Of a stretch of DNA of 22,667 nucleotides, positions 2,535-10,014 are shown piece after piece. The notes under the pieces were generated by a model, which was given only the letters and a program-made list of their open reading frames with translations, was not told the origin of the DNA and did no database searches. How positions within the stretch are numbered: the stretch's first letter is position 1; each line of letters opens with the position of its first letter. The stretch covers positions 1 to 22,667 of IMG/VR virus record IMGVR_UViG_3300040856_000134. One strand, given 5' to 3'. Source of the DNA: a virus. Both the position numbers and the translations under genes were made by a program.

Positions 2535-4391
2535 ATGGCAGGTTATACTAGACAATCCTCATTCGCTGATGGTGATATTATTCAGGCATCAGACTTTAAT
2601 GATGAATATAACCAACTAGTAAACACATTTGATAATACCACAGGTCACTCACACGATGGCACTAGTGGTGAAGGTCCAGTCATTGGCTTGATTGGAGACC
2701 CCGGCGTTTCTATTCCTATCAATAAAGTTGTAGTAGATGACACTAATAATCGTGTAGGTGTTTTTATAGATGCTGCGGGTGCAGGTTCATCTGTTGAACA
2801 GGTACGTTTTGAAGATGGTGTTATTTTACCTGTAACAACAAACGATGTTGATTTAGGTTCTGTAACAAACCAATATAAAGATGCTTATTTTTCTGGTAGT
2901 TTAAATGTAGCTGGTATTAGCGTTGGTGGGGGTTCTAGTATTGGGACTGTACTTGATGAAGATGATATGGTTTCTGATTCAGATACTTCTATTGCTACGC
3001 AGCAATCAATTAAAGCCTACGTAGATGCACAGGTAACTGCACAGGACTTAGATGTTGCTGCAGATACAGGCACTGCTGCTGTTGACCTTGACAGCCAGTC
3101 ATTTACTGTAACTGGTGGCACAGGCATTGATACATCAGCTACAGGTCAAACTGTAACTATTGATATTGACTCTACAGTAGCTACTTTAACAGACACACAG
3201 ACACTCACAAATAAAACTATTGATGCAGCTAGTAACACACTATCTAATATAGACACTACTATGCTTGCTGCAGGTGTACTTGACACTGACCTTACATCCG
3301 TATCTCTTACAGATGATACCATTCCATCGGCTAAAGCCACTAAAGATTATATTGATACACAACTTACTGCAGAAGATTTAGACTTTCAAGGTGATACTGG
3401 TGGCGCACAAAGTATTGACCTAGATAGTCAAACACTCACTATTGCTGGTGGTGTAGGTATTGATACTACAGGTTCAGCACAGACTCTTACTATTGATATT
3501 GATAGCACTGTAGCTACCCTTACTGGTACGCAGACGCTTACCAACAAGACGCTTACAGCCCCTGTAATCAACACCATCAGTAATACTGGTACTATTACCC
3601 TACCGACTAGCACAGACACGCTTGTAGGCCGTGCTACAACGGATACTCTGACAAATAAAACCTTGACAAGTGCGGTGCTTGACGGTACAATAAGTGGAAC
3701 TTCTATTAAAGATGAAGATACAATGGTATCTGACTCTGCTACACACTTAGCTACACAACAATCTATTAAGGCTTATGTAGACTCACAAGTGGGTGCTATT
3801 CCTCTTGGTGATATTACAGAAGTAACTGCGGGAACAGGTTTATCTGGTGGCGGTACTAGCGGTGCAGTAACTCTTGATATTGACAGCACTGTTACTACCC
3901 TTACGGGTACACAAACACTTACAAACAAAACTTTAACCAGTCCAACAATTGATTTGTCAACAATAACATCTGCCGGTGATTTGGCAGTAGCAGATGGTGG
4001 TACAGGAGCAAGCAACGCTTCTGATGCACGTACTAATCTTGGCATAGCAATTGGTACAGACGTACAAGCCTATGATGCAGAACTCGCAGCACTGGCTGGA
4101 TTAACATCAGCGGCAGATAAAGGTATACAGTTCACAGGTGCGGGAACAGCGGGTACTTATGATTTAACAACAGCAGGTAAAGCACTACTTGATGACGCTG
4201 ACGCTGCAGCACAACGTACTACCCTTGGTTTGGGTACAGCAGCTACTTTAAATATAGGTACAAGTGCAAATAATATTGTACAATTAGACGGTACTGGAAA
4301 ACTACCAGCAGTAGACGGTTCACAGTTAACTAACCTCACCATAACAGAAACAGACCCAACAGCACTAGCATTTGCTATTGCGTTAGGTTAG
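2535..4391 (+). CDS. Main tail fibre protein with TQTLTNKT-type repeats
   Basis: 618 residues. The first 50 ('[20 protein letters not shown]', then '[12 protein letters not shown]') match the attachment domain of podovirus tail fibres, which binds the tail. The shaft is repetitive: TQTLTNKT or a close variant at residues 221-228, 332-339, 369-376 and 459-466; '[11 protein letters not shown]' at 154-164 and 406-416; and '[12 protein letters not shown]'-like strands before the TQTLTNKT copies. Residues 512-530 ('[19 protein letters not shown]') are a common fibre shaft motif. It is Thr/Asp/Gly-rich, as expected for a trimeric beta-structured fibre. There is no obvious C-terminal receptor domain or self-cleaving chaperone; the protein ends in a short Leu/Ala tail. 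Tip proteins are probably encoded downstream. The start has AGGAG 8 bases upstream. Confidence 0.85.
3195..3932 (+). repeat. TQTLTNKT-coding repeats in the fibre shaft
   Basis: Four degenerate 24-base copies encode TQTLTNKT or TDTLTNKT, at 3195-3218, 3528-3551, 3639-3662 and 3909-3932. Three of the four follow an 'IDSTV-TLT' strand. A fifth copy (TQALTNKT) is at 4872-4895 in a different gene. The peptide is conserved while codons vary, so this is an old, selected repeat and not recent slippage. Confidence 0.8.
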
Positions 4392-4449: not shown

Positions 4450-4794
4450 ATGGCAAACGCTTTTAAATCAGAGACAGATACTGGAGTAGGAACATCCCCT
4501 GCTACTGTTTACACATGCCCTGCCTCAACAGAAACAACCATAATTGGTTTAACTATAGCAAATATACACACAAGCCAGATTGAAATTGATGTTCAGTTAG
4601 ATGCAAGCACTCGCACCAGTGGCGCAGAAGACAGTGTTTATATCATAAAGGACGCTCCTGTTCCTGTAGGGTCTTCCTTAATTGCGGTTGGTGGCGATCA
4701 AAAAATAGTTTTAGAACCCGGTGACACTATAAAAGTTACATCAAATACCGCCGCTTCGGCAGATGTTGCTTTGTCCTACCTTGAGATTTCATAA
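4450..4794 (+). CDS. Small beta-rich virion-associated protein, unknown
   Basis: 114 residues, Thr/Ser/Val-rich with alternating hydrophobic strands ('TTIIGLTIANIHTSQIEIDV', later 'KIVLEPGDTIKVTSN'). The pattern suggests a single jelly-roll or Ig-like beta sandwich. I recall similar proteins among fibre and structural genes of marine phages, with no known function. No signal peptide or membrane segment is seen. It is the first gene behind the consensus promoter at 4399-4427 and has a clean AGGAG site 6 bases before the ATG, so it should be well expressed. The fibre-type neighbours suggest a virion decoration or fibre accessory role, which is inference. Confidence 0.65.
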   Translation: MANAFKSETDTGVGTSPATVYTCPASTETTIIGLTIANIHTSQIEIDVQLDASTRTSGAEDSVYIIKDAPVPVGSSLIAVGGDQKIVLEPGDTIKVTSNTAASADVALSYLEIS

Positions 4795-4805
4795 GGATTA
4801 ACAGT

Positions 4806-5369
4806 ATGAGTTATATAGGACCAAAAGCTATAGGTGAATTTGCTGACAGTACTATTGTCACAATTACAGGCACACAAGCACTAACCAATAAAACTGTAAA
4901 TGGTGTTGATCCCGCTGGGGCAGCAATGCTGACCGGCGCAACTTTCAGCGGTGCGGTTGCTTTCAGCGGTGCGGTTGCTGTTGACAATCAGCTAGATATT
5001 GAGGAGGTCCACGAAAAAGTAACAGTAACTACATCTACGACTGGAACTTTAACTTTTGATACATCGGCTCAAGGCGTTGTTCTTGGAACAGCAAACCAAA
5101 CAGCCAATAGAACAATTAATTTTACAAATGTAAACTCAACCTTGGCTATAGGTCAAAGTGTGACTTGTGCTGTGATGTTAACTCAAGGTTCAACAGCCTA
5201 TTATTTAAATGCTTATCAAGTTGACAGTAGTGCTGTAACTCCTAAATGGCAGGGAGGCACTGCTCCAACAGCGGGTAACGCAAGTGGTATTGACGCTTAT
5301 AGCTTTACAATTGTTAAAACCGCTGACGCTACATTTACAGTGCTGGCTTCTCAAACGCAGTTTGCATAG
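4806..5369 (+). CDS. Fibre-associated protein, first copy of the KWQGG family
   Basis: 187 residues. The N-terminus 'MSYIGPKAIGEFADSTIVTI' followed by TQALTNKT (23-30) is a fibre-type attachment segment sharing the motif of the main fibre. Residues 48-59 hold a doubled FSGAVA, encoded by an exact 18-base tandem repeat. The C-terminal half (about 94-187: 'TANQTANRT', 'KWQGGTAPTAGNASGIDAY', final 'ASQTQFA') is clearly homologous to the C-terminal half of the protein at 8093-8623. The N-terminal halves differ. The glycine-rich tip gene follows after 12 bases, and the paired arrangement recurs at 8093-9976. It is probably a connector or short fibre that carries the next gene's product. The function is unproven. 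Confidence 0.7.
   Translation: MSYIGPKAIGEFADSTIVTITGTQALTNKTVNGVDPAGAAMLTGATFSGAVAFSGAVAVDNQLDIEEVHEKVTVTTSTTGTLTFDTSAQGVVLGTANQTANRTINFTNVNSTLAIGQSVTCAVMLTQGSTAYYLNAYQVDSSAVTPKWQGGTAPTAGNASGIDAYSFTIVKTADATFTVLASQTQFA
4943..4978 (+). repeat. Exact 18-base tandem duplication
   Basis: TTTCAGCGGTGCGGTTGC occurs twice in direct tandem, at 4943-4960 and 4961-4978, with no mismatch. It keeps the frame and doubles the hexapeptide FSGAVA in the protein encoded at 4806-5369. Perfect identity at synonymous positions suggests a recent slippage event or an unstable, length-varying site. Confidence 0.9.
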
Positions 5370-5381
5370 GAGAATTTTATA

Positions 5382-6317
5382 ATGCCTATGTTAGCAACGA
5401 TTGGCGCAGGTTCAGCTAGAGGATTTGGGTTTGGTTCAATTAGCGATCCACCTTTTGGAGACGAAGTATTCACATCGTCAGGTACTTTTACAGTACCAGC
5501 TGGAGTAACATCTATTAGTGCTGTTGCAATTGGCGGCGGCGGTGGGGGCTTGTATTATGCTGGTGCTGGTTCAACCTATACTTTTGCGATGAATGGTGGT
5601 GCCGGTGGTGGGCTTGCTTGGTTTAATGGTTTAGCCGTAACACCGGGACAAATAATAGACGTTACGGTTGGAGCAGGGGGTCTTGACGGGGCATATTCAA
5701 CAGGCAGTACAAACGGTGGAAATAGTATTTTAAGAACAGGTGGGCTTACTATTGTAACCGCTACAGGTGGAATTGCCGGAAGATATAACATAACTAGACC
5801 AACAGGCGGTACATATAGTTTTAACACAACTAATTTTACTTTTGCTTCGACAGGCGGCGGTAATGGCGGTGGTACTACTTCCACAGCGGCAACAAACTAC
5901 GGACCAGCAGGCGGGGGTGGAGCCGGAGGATATAGTGGCAACGGTGGAACCGGTAGAGATGATGCTGCTAGTTCAGGCGGTAATGGAAGTGGCGGCGGTG
6001 GCGGCGGCGGCGGGGCTTCTGGAAATTCAACCTATGTAGACCATATTTCTGGCGGTGGAGGTGGAACTGGACTCTATGGAGAGGGGTTAAGCGGCCTAGG
6101 TCAAGTAGATGGTTCTGCTACAGGTGGCAGTGGCGGTGGTAATAGTCCTGTCCCAACCAACACTAATGGCACTCAGGATGGCGGTCTGTATGGCGGCGGC
6201 GGCGGTGGAAAAAGCAGTGCTTGGTGGGGAGTACATGCTGGTAACGGAGGAGCCGGTGCAGTTAGAATTTTATGGGGTGAGGGTCGAGCATTTCCTTCGA
6301 CTAATGTAGGTGCATAA
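5382..6317 (+). CDS. Glycine-rich tip adhesin (polyglycine type)
   Basis: 311 residues. Residues 1-20 (MPMLATIGAGSARGFGFGSI) form a short anchor shared with the protein at 8636-9976. Residues 30-50 (FTSSGTFTVPAGVTSISAVA) form the usual beta strand leading into glycine-rich phage adhesins. From 51 on, glycine runs dominate (51-56, 177-180, 204-211, 224-228, 271-276) between variable polar loops. The end (GAVRILWGEGRAFPSTN) is the conserved C-terminal strand of this class. By analogy with gp38-type adhesins of T4-like phages, the glycine runs pack as a polyglycine-II sandwich with the loops binding the host receptor. The overlap with the next gene is one base (TAATG). The coding strand is strongly G-rich here, unlike its neighbours. 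The receptor is unknown. Confidence 0.75.
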   Translation: MPMLATIGAGSARGFGFGSISDPPFGDEVFTSSGTFTVPAGVTSISAVAIGGGGGGLYYAGAGSTYTFAMNGGAGGGLAWFNGLAVTPGQIIDVTVGAGGLDGAYSTGSTNGGNSILRTGGLTIVTATGGIAGRYNITRPTGGTYSFNTTNFTFASTGGGNGGGTTSTAATNYGPAGGGGAGGYSGNGGTGRDDAASSGGNGSGGGGGGGGASGNSTYVDHISGGGGGTGLYGEGLSGLGQVDGSATGGSGGGNSPVPTNTNGTQDGGLYGGGGGGKSSAWWGVHAGNGGAGAVRILWGEGRAFPSTNVGA

Positions 6318-6529
6318 TGGCAAATTGTTTTTGGGATGTCACATTTCAGATAGGCGATGATAGCAACGAAACAGTTCTGATTTGTATAAATGACGAGTTG
6401 CTTGAACCAGGATTTACTGAAGACACGGTAGTTGAAGAGGCTGCAACAGCAGTGTACGAATTAATGGGGGAACAGGTCACGCTTACCCTAGTACAAACAC
6501 AAGTGAGAGAACATGGCATATTTAGGTAA
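6317..6529 (+). CDS. Small acidic protein of unknown function
   Basis: 70 residues, acidic ('INDELLEPGFTEDTVVEEAA'), with no recognised domain, membrane segment or signal peptide. It starts inside the stop codon of the glycine-rich adhesin gene (TAATG) and its last 17 bases overlap the next fibre gene in another frame, so it is translationally coupled on both sides. The coupling supports it being real. It could be a chaperone or assembly factor for the adjacent adhesin or fibre, since such helpers often sit beside phage tip genes, but nothing in the residues shows this. Confidence 0.6.
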   Translation: MANCFWDVTFQIGDDSNETVLICINDELLEPGFTEDTVVEEAATAVYELMGEQVTLTLVQTQVREHGIFR

Positions 6530-7784
6530 AACACCCTCTCAGGGGACACGAAACAGGTTCTATTTTACAGCATCTGGTGGAGAAACATCTTTAAGTGGTG
6601 CCGATGATAACGGTAATACTTTAACATTTGCTGATGGAGCATTTGTTGATGTTAGTGTAAATGGAATTTCACTTGTCGCGGGTACTGACTACAACACCTC
6701 TACTGACAACACGATTGCTGGCCTGACTGCGCTTTCTGCAAGCGATGTAGTAGAGATTGTCGCTTACGATGTGTTTAATATATTTAGCGGAAGTGTAAAT
6801 GGACCTCTAAATGTCAGCGAGACTGTCACAGCATCAGCATTTAGTGGTGATGGCTCTGCTCTGACTGGTATCCCAAACCCAACTCTGACTAGCTTGGGTA
6901 TTGCTAACCATAATCTTCTTTCTGTTGATTCTAATGGTGTTTTAACTTTACCTGACAATTATATTGTTTCTGGATTTGAACCAACTCTGCCTTTTGATAT
7001 AAATAGCAGTGGGTCAAATCAGTCGATAGATGCTTTATATTATAATCAATGGGCACTTGGGATTTTAACTGATTTTAATATCCCTACATCAGAAACATTT
7101 AAAGCACCTTGGAGTAACACTACTATTCTTAAAGGTTCTTTAGTAGAGGGAAATTCTGCGGATGCATCAAGAGCAGCGTCTAGTTTACCTAGTAATAATT
7201 ATGGTGATACTTTTATATTAGGTAATCAAGATGCTAATAATAATTTAAAATCGGGTCTTAGCATTAGTGGTCATACTACTGCGTTGATAAGTGGCGCAGA
7301 TGGTGAATCTAAACTTTATAAAGGAACTTCACAAAAATTAAGCACTTCTAGCACAGGCGTATCTGTTACTGGTGATGTTAGTGTAACAGGCGGTGTCTAC
7401 GTAGGCGGCACAGGCTCAGCTAATTATTTGGATGACTTTGAAACTGGAACTTTTACTCCCACTGTAAATGGGGGGGTAACACTAACTATCGCGCAAGGTA
7501 GATACACAAAAGTGGGTCTTGCTGTATTTGTTGAATTATTTGTACGGTTTCCGTCCACAGCTGATGGCACATTTGCAATCTTTACCTTACCGTTTACTCC
7601 AGACCCGACTGGCAGTAATTATTTCTTTGGTGGGGTAAGCGTTGTTTCAAGTATAAGTACACACGTTAGAAATAGGGCGGTTACGGCTGGCATAAGTCCA
7701 CGAACCGACACCAACGGAACCTTTTACAATGCTAATTTTTCAGGCGCAGACGTACTTATTGGCGGTTGGTACACAACATCTTAA
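6513..7784 (+). CDS. Tail fibre / fibre-like protein with marine-phage N-terminal domain
   Basis: 423 residues. Residues 1-91 ('MAYLGKTPSQGTRNRFYFTA', 'TLTFADGAFVDVSVNGISLV', 'DNTIAGLTAL', 'SDVVEIVAYDVFNIFS') match a well-known N-terminal domain of marine phage fibres that presents the fibre on the virion. Residues 108-120 (SAFSGDGSALTGI) are a standard shaft connector. The middle (about 125-280) is Ser/Asn/Thr-rich and unrecognised. Residues 305-345 ('LDDFETGTFTPTVNGG', then 'GRYTKVGLAVFVELF') are the common C-terminal beta domain of side fibres and tailspikes. This is therefore a second fibre in addition to the one at 2535-4391. The start overlaps the previous gene by 17 bases. Receptor specificity cannot be read. 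Confidence 0.8.
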   Translation: MAYLGKTPSQGTRNRFYFTASGGETSLSGADDNGNTLTFADGAFVDVSVNGISLVAGTDYNTSTDNTIAGLTALSASDVVEIVAYDVFNIFSGSVNGPLNVSETVTASAFSGDGSALTGIPNPTLTSLGIANHNLLSVDSNGVLTLPDNYIVSGFEPTLPFDINSSGSNQSIDALYYNQWALGILTDFNIPTSETFKAPWSNTTILKGSLVEGNSADASRAASSLPSNNYGDTFILGNQDANNNLKSGLSISGHTTALISGADGESKLYKGTSQKLSTSSTGVSVTGDVSVTGGVYVGGTGSANYLDDFETGTFTPTVNGGVTLTIAQGRYTKVGLAVFVELFVRFPSTADGTFAIFTLPFTPDPTGSNYFFGGVSVVSSISTHVRNRAVTAGISPRTDTNGTFYNANFSGADVLIGGWYTTS

Positions 7785-7828
7785 TTATCTTAAGTGGACT
7801 CTTGAGACGGACTTAAAAGGAGACAAAA

Positions 7829-8089
7829 ATGGCACTAACAGAAGAAACAATCCAAGACAAAATTGAAATCGTAGGTGAACACAAGCACGTTCAAGTACGC
7901 ACCGCAACAGTCATCAAGCGTGATGGCGTTGAGATTAGTCGTAGTTTCCATAGGCATACTGTTGCACCTAACGCAGACATCACAGGCGAAAGCACAGAGG
8001 TTCAAGCCATCTGCGGGGCTGTGCATACACAGGCTGTTAAGGACGCTTATGCAATTTATTTGGCGGCAGAAGCGGCTGAAGGGGAATAG
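7829..8089 (+). CDS. Small conserved-type phage protein, unknown function
   Basis: 86 residues. The pattern 'DKIEIVGEHKHVQVRTATVI' and 'DGVEISRSFHRHTVAPNAD' looks like a small beta hairpin followed by an Ala-rich helix ('AVHTQAVKDAYAIYLAAEAA'). I recall similar short proteins next to fibre genes in marine phages, without a known role. Several His residues (18, 20, 41, 43) could bind metal, which is speculative. The ATG has a strong GGAG site in 'AAAAGGAGACAAAA'. The gene sits between the second fibre and the second KWQGG cassette, three bases before the latter. A head or tail fibre accessory role is inferred from context only. Confidence 0.6.
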   Translation: MALTEETIQDKIEIVGEHKHVQVRTATVIKRDGVEISRSFHRHTVAPNADITGESTEVQAICGAVHTQAVKDAYAIYLAAEAAEGE

Positions 8090-8092
8090 TAG

Positions 8093-8623
8093 ATGACTAG
8101 AGCAAGAGAAATGGCGGATTTGTTAGGTGGCGGTGCAACCATTGATGGCCCAATAACCATCCCGGCTAATAATAGTCAAAATACATTTACTGCGGGTGAT
8201 TTCTCTAACATTCCTTATCCTGCTCTTCTGCAAGCTGGTGAAAGATTTTTTGAGTACACAACTACATCGGGGATTATAGAGCAACCTTACCAAGGCAGTG
8301 TTACTTACTTAACAGCTAACCAAGCAGCCAATCGAACATACAATGCTAAATGGTTTTCAGTTATGCCAACTTCTAAGGGGGACTTCGTTGAAGATGTAGT
8401 TATATCTCACGCTGTTTTATTTACAAACGGTACTACTCCATACGTTATTAATGATGTAACAAGCAATGGTATTTTTAATCATACAATAACTCTGAAATGG
8501 CAGGGTGGTGCGGCTCCTACCGCCGGAAATGCAAACAGTGTTGACTTATATACATTCACCTTTGTTAGAACTGGTACTTTGGCGTACACTTGCTTTGCTA
8601 GTCAGCCTGTGAAATATGCGTAG
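8093..8623 (+). CDS. Fibre-associated protein, second copy of the KWQGG family
   Basis: 176 residues. The C-terminal half (about 73-176) is homologous to that of the protein at 4806-5369: 'TANQAANRT' at 74-82, 'KWQGGAAPTAGNANSVDLY' at 135-153, then an aromatic strand and a final 'AS' plus about six residues. The first half is different. It begins MTRAREMADLLGGGATIDGP, a fibre-opening motif seen in other marine phage fibres. Like its paralogue it is followed, after exactly 12 bases, by a tip protein with the RGFGFGS anchor. This supports duplication of a two-gene cassette with exchange of the N-terminal part. A connector role is inferred. Confidence 0.7.
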   Translation: MTRAREMADLLGGGATIDGPITIPANNSQNTFTAGDFSNIPYPALLQAGERFFEYTTTSGIIEQPYQGSVTYLTANQAANRTYNAKWFSVMPTSKGDFVEDVVISHAVLFTNGTTPYVINDVTSNGIFNHTITLKWQGGAAPTAGNANSVDLYTFTFVRTGTLAYTCFASQPVKYA

Positions 8624-8635
8624 GGATAGTTTGTA

Positions 8636-9976
8636 ATGCCTTTGCTCACAACATTAGCAAATTGCTCTGTCAGAGGGTTTGGGTTTGGGTCTTTAGCTGA
8701 TGATTCTTTTAGCTTTGATGAAACTCTTGCGGTTCCAAACTGGAACTCAGGCACAATGACAGAAAGAAAACTAACTCAGTCAGATGCGGCTGGGGGTCAG
8801 TTTGGTAGCGTAGTAACTCTTAGTTATGATAAAAATTATTTTGTGGGTGGTTCCTCTGCGGGAAACGACACTCCTAGTAACGCTGGTAAAGGTTATGTTT
8901 TTTTAAAGACTGGTGCTGCGCCAAGTTCTACTTATGTTCAACAGGCTATTTTACAGCATGACACTCCATCAGTAGATGATGCGTTTGCTTATAGTTATGA
9001 CACAATAGACATTAATAGTAATGGAACTTATTTTATTGGTGGAGCGAGAACCGAAGACCCGGTTGGCGCATTTAATGGTGGAAAAGCTTACATTTTCACA
9101 CGGTCAGGTACTAGCTGGAGCCAACAAGCCACATTAGAATCCAGCGATGTTCAAGGCAACGATCAGTTTGGCATAGGCGTTGCAATTAACGGTGATGGAA
9201 CAATCGCCGCAGTATCAGCAACAGGCGAAGATGGTGGTGCTGGTGACCCACTTGCATCGTCTGGTGCAGTTTATATATACACAAGATCAGGTTCTACTTG
9301 GAGCGAACAGACAATATTGAGGGCATCAAATGCTGGTGCGTCTGACCAACTTGGCGAACGGATTGATATGGATGAAGCGGGAGAATATTTGCTTGCATCC
9401 GCACATTCCGAAGATGGTCCAACTGACTCAACAAGTGGGGTGGGTTGTGCTTATGTGTTTAAAAGAACAGGTTCTAGCTGGGTTGAACAAGCAATATTAA
9501 GGCCATCTGATCCGACTGCTAATGCTTTTTTTGGAAGAGGCGCAATAAATAGCGAAGGAAATATTTGTGTAATTGGCGCGTTTGGTGTTTCAAGTAATGC
9601 TGGTGCAGTTTATGTGTTTACTCGCTCTGGTTCAGAATGGACACAACAAGCAAAAATCACATCTCCAAGTGGTGCTAATACTTATTTTGGAACTGGTGTA
9701 GCAATAAACGCAGGCAACACTATTGTTGCTAGGGCGTCTAGAACATCATCAGCAGTTAATAATGATGGGGTGCTTTATGTTTATCAGGTTACTGATCCAA
9801 CAGACCCTAGTTCAAGCTGGACTTTAAAGAAAACATTTAAATCTTCCGACATTGCTGATGGGGACAATTTTGGTTATCCAGTAGAGATTAGCAAAGATGG
9901 GTCAGTTATAGGTACTGGCGCGCTTGCTGAAGGCAGTAATGGTTCTTGTTATACTTTTGAGGTTCCTTTTGTTTAA
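8636..9976 (+). CDS. FG-GAP-like seven-repeat beta-propeller tip protein
   Basis: 446 residues. The anchor MPLLTTLANCSVRGFGFGSL (1-20) matches that of the glycine-rich adhesin at 5382-6317. The rest consists of seven repeats of about 50-65 residues, starting near 43, 106, 167, 229, 289, 341 and 399. The repeat theme is 'LxxSDxxxxDxFG' - 'xxINxxGxIxxxGA' - 'GAVYVFTRSGSxWxQQAxL'. Clear examples are 'GAVYIYTRSGSTWSEQTIL' at 210-228 and 'GAVYVFTRSGSEWTQQAKI' at 323-341. This pattern is that of FG-GAP/integrin-alpha-like propellers, and seven repeats would close one seven-bladed ring. Asp/Asn/Gly loops may bind calcium. No enzymatic motif is seen. It probably binds a host surface ligand. It is the last gene of the promoter-led module. 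Confidence 0.75.
   Translation: MPLLTTLANCSVRGFGFGSLADDSFSFDETLAVPNWNSGTMTERKLTQSDAAGGQFGSVVTLSYDKNYFVGGSSAGNDTPSNAGKGYVFLKTGAAPSSTYVQQAILQHDTPSVDDAFAYSYDTIDINSNGTYFIGGARTEDPVGAFNGGKAYIFTRSGTSWSQQATLESSDVQGNDQFGIGVAINGDGTIAAVSATGEDGGAGDPLASSGAVYIYTRSGSTWSEQTILRASNAGASDQLGERIDMDEAGEYLLASAHSEDGPTDSTSGVGCAYVFKRTGSSWVEQAILRPSDPTANAFFGRGAINSEGNICVIGAFGVSSNAGAVYVFTRSGSEWTQQAKITSPSGANTYFGTGVAINAGNTIVARASRTSSAVNNDGVLYVYQVTDPTDPSSSWTLKKTFKSSDIADGDNFGYPVEISKDGSVIGTGALAEGSNGSCYTFEVPFV
8762..9964 (+). repeat. Seven FG-GAP-like repeats (propeller blades)
   Basis: Seven degenerate repeats in the encoded protein, residues about 43-443, each with a 'DQFG'-like turn, a 'GDGTI' or 'NGTY' turn and a 'YVFTRSG' strand. 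Repeats 2-5 are the most alike; 1, 6 and 7 are more divergent. DNA identity between repeats is only moderate, so the array is old. Confidence 0.7.
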
Positions 9977-10014
9977 TAATTTTATACGCTGATGAGTGTT
10001 TAGGAAAATATAAA

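Follow-up and report, generated by a model that had tools for sequence, protein, structure and literature searches.

How do marine phages exchange receptor-binding heads that have no sequence in common, and can one phage carry two of them? This question is raised by a 22,667-base virus record (IMG/VR record IMGVR_UViG_3300040856_000134, analysed at its full length and called the window here), in which a two-gene cassette, made up of a ‘connector’ gene and a ‘tip’ gene directly behind it, is found twice. To our knowledge, the receptor-binding protein of most marine phages is unknown, and their heads are too diverse to be found by similarity. Over 3.07 kb, the right-hand part of the window has 76.7% DNA identity to Puniceispirillum phage HMO-2011, and HMO-2011 translations run alongside its genes; we assign the window, as a fragment, to a marine podovirus of the HMO-2011 type. 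We consider it likely that the C-terminal domain of the connector forms a socket at the end of a fibre, that the opening of the tip protein is a docking plug, that unrelated heads can be exchanged on this plug, and that the window holds two such cassettes.

The four open reading frames (ORFs) of the cassettes (4806-5369, 5382-6317, 8093-8623 and 8636-9976) are present exactly as they were placed in a preliminary description made from the sequence alone, and its view that they are two copies of one arrangement with different tips was upheld when the pairs were aligned. The connectors are homologous in a common C-terminal domain (BLASTP, 38% identity over 125 amino acids, expectation value (E) 9e-19; z = 20.6 against shuffled sequence), and their N-terminal parts differ (z = 0.0). 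The tips open with MPMLATIGAGSARGFGFGS and MPLLTTLANCSVRGFGFGS, identical at 12 of 19 residues (z = 15.3 for the first 25 amino acids), and nothing detectable is shared after residue 25, where they are no more alike than shuffled sequence (z = 0.0). Tip 2 is indeed a propeller (FG-GAP, PF14312, E 1.8e-39, six stretches) and tip 1 is glycine-rich (32% glycine), with a weak match to Gly_rich_2 (E 2.6e-4) below that family's cut-off. Both tip genes follow after exactly 12 bases (GAGAATTTTATA and GGATAGTTTGTA); as a special signal this spacing was rejected, other spacings being as common among the 147 anchored cases described below (-1 in 26, 9 in 27, 12 in 21).

Both connectors match phrog_5906, a family of unknown function. 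An AlphaFold2 model of socket 1 (nucleotides 4995-5366) is nearly all beta, with a predicted local distance difference test (pLDDT) of 89.7 and a predicted template modelling score (pTM) of 0.83; its lowest interior confidence lies in the conserved loop (model residues 81-100), and might fit a part that is ordered by a partner. A PDB sequence search with the connector profile gave no relative (profilin at E 0.34 was taken as chance), and the Foldseek search of the socket fold gave no significant match, T4 gp10 being absent from the matches listed, although unlisted folds are not thereby excluded; weak second-look fold matches (phage spike and tailspike domains, T4 gp9; Z at most 6.8) were not used as evidence. 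In the monomer model of tip 1 (mean pLDDT 68, pTM 0.74), built with its partner absent, confidence is high at about residues 25-160 and largely low in the glycine-rich rest, and the first 20 residues are disordered (pLDDT about 39); the model contains no helix. The fold of head 1 was aligned with that of the cyanophage Pam3 fibre (7ypx) over model residues 25-301, low-confidence part included (VIA-align Z 16.1, root mean square deviation 3.1, 188 aligned residues, 28% identity; Foldseek E 1.6e-6), so that head 1, as modelled, resembles a Pam3-type TNF-like/glycine-rich receptor-binding head. The fold matches listed for head 1 do not include S16 gp38, an absence not used as evidence; PF05268 (GP38) gave no match at E up to 1 for either window tip, and a single-protein search of IMG/VR for close relatives of each whole tip returned the identical contig only.

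The spread of the arrangement was followed from the connectors. At E 1e-3, tblastn found connector 1 in 26 phage records and connector 2 in four; among six neighbourhoods that were read, the gene after the connector passes the plug profile in CRP-3, CRP-738 and the Manatee Spring podovirus, where it is annotated as tail fiber adhesin gp38, is weakly alike at its opening in S-MbCM6 and Syn30 (profile scores 4.4 and 5.0), and fails in S-BM3 (-1.9). The IMG/VR scan with a connector alignment (600 stretches) contributed the best 80 of at least 558 confirmed stretches, and the scan with connector 2 contributed 64 loci. Counts of loci here describe samples: the numbers from four of the scans are lower bounds, and two scans kept the best 80 only. 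The linkage sample had 152 sources (the IMG/VR loci, the window and seven GenBank phage loci, L003-L009), with redundancy kept; it includes L090, which is 100% identical to the window over 12.5 kb and was left out from the collapsing of tips onward. A profile search of this sample found 160 connector domains in 151 loci. An anchored gene follows 147 of the 159 connectors with readable downstream sequence, versus 3 of 2,159 other ORFs in the same loci, which had been chosen by the connector; each of these three closely follows a cassette: two come after another plugged tip, and the third after an additional small gene.

The linkage is reciprocal. When the search for the anchor was run in reverse, from in-frame ATGCC...RGFGFG-type genes, a connector domain lay within 1.5 kb upstream in 59 of 72 genes with at least 600 nucleotides of upstream sequence (some contigs overlap with the first sample); the other 13 look unrelated by eye, and 6 of 8 genes with shorter upstream DNA have a connector. 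Connectors were also found in six metagenome-assembled genome contigs among bacterial and archaeal genome contigs, and a plasmid search found none. By these sequence counts the predicted socket-and-plug arrangement is widespread among aquatic phages.

The two parts keep company with very different sequences on either side. In 4,000 sampled pairs of the 160 cassettes, mean identity is 0.58 in the socket and 0.50 in the plug (2,834 usable pairs), versus 0.18 in the roughly 60 amino acids after the plug (shuffled 0.16) and 0.24 in the 60 amino acids before the socket (3,835 pairs; shuffled 0.18). The domain is terminal: of 160 copies with a stop codon, 159 end at most 3 amino acids from it, the other being a fusion in L053 described below. 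The connectors themselves range from 153 to 1,420 amino acids with very varied N-termini (107 non-redundant full-length connectors), and that of L217 (138 amino acids) is MSRARDVAN plus the socket and nothing more. Collapsing 211 tips at 85% identity left 168, of which 158 were scanned against Pfam together with those of L010 and L276 (126 of up to 446 amino acids and 34 longer), ten tips that were very short, very long or similar being left out. The 126 shorter tips include Gly_rich_2 (56), SBBP propeller (7), FG-GAP_2 (4), GP38 (4) and another propeller family (4), with LamG, Lcl_C, RCC1 and further families occurring once or twice each; the GP38 matches (PF05268, E up to 0.001) include L075 above the Pfam cut-off (E 1.3e-12) and L252 and L036 below it. 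The 34 longer tips include DUF7483 (12), Gly_rich_2 (7), Laminin_G_3 (6), SBBP (5), NHL (2), RCC1 (1) and FG-GAP (1). Across tips, the opening is the sole stretch with a common non-glycine consensus. The proposal of a modular socket with unrelated heads is therefore well supported, since many contigs combine the connector domain and the opening peptide with heads that are unrelated.

Comparison of closely related cassettes reveals where heads have been exchanged. Over socket 1 and plug 1 the DNA of the window is 82% identical to that of L010, and the match (4960-5434) stops where the plug ends; the L010 connector is a 786-amino-acid fibre, its head is an FG-GAP protein 38% identical to window tip 2, and its available 9 kb otherwise has only fibre-gene segments in common with the window. 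Together, L010, L235 and L217 are 82-88% identical to the window over socket 1, yet carry FG-GAP-type heads where the window has a glycine-rich one, and their matches break off 53-62 nucleotides inside the tip gene, as the 57-nucleotide plug ends. Because third-codon identity of the socket between the window and L010 is only 0.605 (protein-level identity 0.895), this transfer is not recent. Among interdependent cassette pairs with a DNA match across the socket end, 43 of 96 matches of 80-90% identity end 40-60 nucleotides into the tip gene and 16 of 96 extend at least 300 nucleotides, as do 45 of 67 at identities of 90% or more. For T-even phages, adhesin swaps by recombination between conserved motifs were reportedly described by Tetart in 1998.

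The predicted recent exchange rests on two other contigs. The flanks of a sister phage, L276, are 95% and 97% identical to the window; within cassette 1 the DNA match resumes at nucleotide 5244, the first base of the KWQGG loop, and runs through plug and head at 88%, so crossing-over seems to occur inside the socket as well, and in place of cassette 2 there is a 522-amino-acid gene with a Peptidase_S74 end and an overlapping 106-amino-acid gene. In L229, relatives of the window fibre genes at 4450-8089 lie at 4757-8258 (minus strand) and are 76-98% identical in the matched stretches, one gene being matched over 121 of 423 amino acids only; the backbone of L229 is long-tailed (tail tube, head completion and tape measure genes), with yet another gene in the second slot. 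A fibre-gene run is thus common to the podovirus window and a long-tailed phage, and therefore the whole array seems to move between phage types. The preliminary description had suggested exchange by recombination at the anchor: head exchange stands, on the match breaks in L010, L235 and L217 and on L276, and the anchor alone does not, the exchanged block being socket plus plug. L053 (3638-5117; the same contig is present in L167) contains a natural one-gene fusion in which the socket, its KWQGG loop degenerate, runs directly into a glycine-rich head, and the plug is missing.

Socket and plug also vary together. Socket residues are numbered from nucleotide 5004, residue 83 being the x of KWxGG; P is plug residue 2, and P+15 the second F of RGFGFG. 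When plug columns were compared with socket columns in 144 unique cassettes, the highest corrected association was that of P+14 with residue 83, 14 of 14 N plugs standing beside S sockets. P+15 is hydrophobic beside 104 of 121 Q-83 sockets versus 0 of 23 S-83 sockets, and residue 83 is the best socket column for it (normalised information 0.57; next column 0.15). The socket trait changes at least 10 times on the tree, with three independent pairs on supported branches, none opposite in direction. New loci were then fetched by the socket letter alone, 24 near-identical to earlier ones were dropped, and the remainder was collapsed to 85; connectors without a parsable plug (76), near a contig end (5) or running off the contig (3) were set aside. 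In these loci P+15 was hydrophobic beside 50 of 74 Q versus 1 of 10 S sockets (Fisher p 7e-4, a test that ignores the tree). Subtypes match as well: AGxK-ended sockets occur with KATV plugs only (16 of 16 typed) and other sockets with RGFG or AAFG plugs only (252 of 252 typed), giving 0 crossovers among 268 typed pairs from 342 unique connectors, in classes that were set after seeing the data.

In the mechanism that we favour, the beta domain of about 125 residues that closes the connector would sit as a socket at the very end of the fibre; the next gene would supply the receptor-binding head, and its first ~19 residues (MPxLxTxGxxSxRGFGFG) would be the plug that docks into the socket, probably at the KWQGG-APTAGNA loop. 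Unrelated heads (Pam3-like glycine-rich or FG-GAP propeller) would be exchangeable because compatible heads all carry the same kind of plug, and exchange could proceed by recombination in the conserved socket-plus-plug block or by replacement of whole cassettes. Homology, linkage, head diversity, swaps and covariation are shown by computation; from there on we infer physical docking, with its site and stoichiometry, and receptor binding by the heads. A broader proposal, which we offer tentatively and rate somewhat short of an even chance, is that aquatic tailed phages share an exchange standard: one C-terminal socket fold and a single short plug, both divided into separate compatibility groups (Q-83 with a hydrophobic P+15 plug, S-83 with a plug that lacks a hydrophobic P+15, and an AGxK-ended socket with a KATV plug), mountable on fibres of short- and long-tailed phages, some of which, this phage included, would mount two heads at once.

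The window has coding capacity for two putative heads, both of which could be used on one virion. Among the 151 loci, mostly cut at 7-kb flanks, two split cassettes are also found in L021, L026, L029, L085 and L091, besides the identical contig L090; L053 has one split and one fused cassette, and L007 has two connectors and one tip. The two tips of a genome have no blastp similarity in L021 (where the second is truncated), L026, L029 and L091, even though both are glycine-rich in L021 and L026; those of L085 are 30% identical over 67 amino acids, plug included. L091 repeats the combination of the window, with a connector-2-like socket and FG-GAP head beside a connector-1-like socket and another head. 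The sister L276 is without the second cassette. CRP-3, which its authors assign to the HMO-2011-type group (PMC6918029), has one connector. No connector is present in 76 of 79 HMO-type relatives (30 of 32 among those with at least 7 kb upstream); since these have none and CRP-3 has one, two cassettes are unusual in this group.

Several results weigh against the docking proposal. Its support so far is purely computational, and the socket has no clear solved relative by sequence or fold. Only 109 of the 192 connectors in a second sample, picked by socket motif, are followed by the standard plug; variants such as MPRLSKIGAAALAAFGW or MSPLLTGFAFGG...KATVTGTTGSP open many of the other genes, and 74 of the 342 unique connectors could not be typed. 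At 60-75% identity, 2,310 of 3,919 interdependent matches end before the tip gene. On the socket tree of the 160 cassettes, heads switch between glycine-rich and other types at least 32 times, fewer than the mean of 53.3 for shuffled labels; head class thus depends in part on the socket tree, and head exchange is frequent but not free. The remaining difficulties favour a reading in which connector and tip are virion proteins that are merely inherited together, the opening peptide attaches the head elsewhere than to the connector, and the apparent covariation is shared descent. On supported branches the covariation is not significant (median p 0.25; three pairs cannot reach significance), so that shared descent may explain part of it, and the P+14 rule was not upheld in the new loci, which had one N beside Q and one beside S. 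Moreover, intact-looking sockets without a plugged gene occur in L025 and L052, and the HMO-type long fibres of L338 (7724-9724) and L340 (3175-5175) terminate in a domain like the socket (KWASGTAP) that no tip gene follows; in these fibres either the domain itself would be the tip or the head would have been lost. Nonetheless, we regard inheritance without docking as unlikely, given the strong reciprocal adjacency of socket and plug, the absence of the plug precisely where the L053 socket is covalently joined to its head, the matched subtypes, and a P+15 trend that holds out of sample. A rule linking loss of the plug to loss of KWQGG was considered and is only partly true: L053, L338 and L340 lost the GG, and L025 and L052 keep it.

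If the downstream gene encoded a tail-fibre chaperone like T4 gp38 or Tfa, shed once assembly is complete, its place directly behind a fibre gene would be expected, this being typical of chaperones according to excerpts of two papers (PMC7289586, PMC9608196). Such a role is very unlikely for proteins whose bodies are diverse recognition folds (FG-GAP, RCC1, LamG, GP38 adhesin, glycine-rich), one of which resembles the receptor-binding part of the Pam3 fibre, and in the L053 fusion a glycine-rich head belongs to the fibre protein itself. Finally, the same layout and 12-nucleotide spacing of both cassettes could mean that one cassette was duplicated recently in this phage and that one of the heads was then replaced. 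We reject a local duplication as extremely improbable because the connectors are closer to those of other phages than to each other: they are 38% identical mutually, while the connector 1 domain is 90% identical to that of L010 and the connector 2 domain 56% identical to that of L091 (the best other phage, L090 set aside), which itself pairs a connector-2-like cassette bearing an FG-GAP head with a connector-1-like one.

No description of this module was found in the open-licence literature, nor any paper there linking FG-GAP with tail fiber and receptor-binding or containing the letters RGFGFG. The earlier statement that the arrangement has no named description holds for the module itself and not for its principle, which is known from the T-even tip adhesin and from the short N-terminal docking peptides of K1-5/KP32-type phages; by analogy, the system would work like both, and connector and plug could not be tied to those families. 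In T-even phages (T2, PP01, S16) the head gene also lies right after the distal fibre gene, as the tip gene lies directly downstream of the presumed fibre-end gene here, and the swappable head is joined to the end of the fibre through its N-terminus. A T2-type phage that lacked gp38 could not use PP01 gp38, likely through misfit to T2 gp37, until the N-terminal 113 amino acids of the PP01 protein were exchanged for those of T2 (PMC12892980, in excerpt). The differences are that S16 gp38 attaches via three short helices (PMC9608196, in the part available), versus a peptide of ~19 residues, helix-free in the monomer model; that the window tips have no PF05268 match, though a few heads on the same plug do, and heads here span many folds; and that the PDB search with the connector profile gave no sequence match. 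S16 gp38 has a polyglycine type II sandwich; the glycine-rich part of head 1 is of low confidence in the model, and the best match of head 1 is Pam3 gp24.

In K1E/K1-5/SP6, G7C and KP32-type phages the second receptor-binding protein docks through a short stretch conserved at its N-terminus, much as the tip would here through its plug; excerpts of two reports give docking peptides down to 7 or 11 residues and two specificities per virion in K1-5/KP32-type systems (PMC6872550, PMC13082707). The dock there is described, in the same excerpts, as a T4gp10-like domain within an anchor or adapter, and here it would be a C-terminal domain that ends connectors of varied N-termini. Head 1 resembles the TNF-like and glycine-rich receptor-binding part of Pam3 gp24, which as excerpted is a single protein that docks to the baseplate by a helical stem of its own (PMC9608196), whereas head 1 has the plug only, the stem being absent from sequence and model. 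The host-recognition module of Alteromonas phages A5, V22 and P24 is likewise a fibre module common to morphologically different marine phages (PMC10579305, in part); there fibre and chaperone are shared as one module, whereas in the present system recombination also separates socket, plug and head.

Should the plug prove to be a docking tag, a gene that carries it beside a socket would encode the head. Heads and their fold families could then be listed directly from metagenomes and tested, host-specificity exchange between unrelated phages would have a concrete molecular basis, and socket residue 83 against plug P+15 would provide a sequence rule that predicts which heads fit which fibres.

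Table 1. Features of the cassettes and their surroundings in the window.
Feature	Position	Strand	Basis
Main long fibre gene, HMO-2011 gp43-like, upstream neighbour	2535..4391	+	tail fiber PHROG matches; HMO-2011 translation
Connector 1, 187 amino acids: own N-terminal part and C-terminal putative socket domain	4806..5369	+	ORF; phrog_5906 E 2.6e-19
Putative socket domain 1, ends at stop codon; residue numbering starts at nucleotide 5004	5004..5366	+	hidden Markov model (HMM) match
KWQGGTAPTAGNA loop of socket 1, proposed plug-binding site, Q = residue 83	5244..5282	+	covariation; conserved stretch of lower model confidence
Putative plug 1, MPMLATIGAGSARGFGFGS	5382..5438	+	alignment; residues 1-20 pLDDT about 39 in model
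Tip gene 1, 311 amino acids: plug and glycine-rich head resembling cyanophage Pam3 fibre	5382..6317	+	structure match to 7ypx
Connector 2, 176 amino acids: N-terminus MTRAREMAD and putative socket domain	8093..8623	+	ORF; phrog_5906 E 0.0018
Putative socket domain 2	8237..8620	+	HMM match score 119.8
KWQGGAAPTAGNA loop of socket 2	8495..8533	+	sequence coordinates
Putative plug 2, MPLLTTLANCSVRGFGFGS	8636..8692	+	alignment
Tip gene 2, 446 amino acids: plug and FG-GAP beta-propeller head	8636..9976	+	PF14312 E 1.8e-39; relatives in L010, L091, L217
Segment with no DNA match in sister phage L276 (other genes there; adjoining matches 88% and 97%)	8080..10014	+	
Socket segment with no DNA match in sister L276; proteins still homologous; flanking N-terminal part, plug and head match	4948..5243	+	

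The fibre region of the window is bounded by the gp43-like long fibre gene and a 680-amino-acid gene that has a relative in HMO-2011. Within the long fibre gene there are internal DNA repeats (3079-3932), ~70-77% identical and seen as secondary DNA matches. At the same place HMO-2011 itself (L003, 4102-9363) has a different multi-gene fibre layout, in which several small fibre proteins share a GDLA end and resemble paralogues.

Genes in the second slot open alike: MTRAREMAD (window 8093), MSRARDLAD (L276 6981), MTRARDMAD (L229 3821-4711, minus strand), MSRARDVAN (L217) and MTRARNIAN (L091 4787); those of the window, L276, L229 and L217 directly follow relatives of a small phrog_6228 gene. The common opening may be a second, upstream plug by which the connector itself is mounted. 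Extra genes are also seen around some cassettes: in L150 (~5640-6160) and L533 a small gene (MLYxAARIDENNVV...) directly follows the connector, with the plugged tip coming next in L150, and L091 (6513-7562) and L151 (from 11610) have extra plugged tip genes behind a plugged tip, with no connector of their own. The tips of L078, L216 and L240 have segments such as YPWSxGFGxKY after the plug.

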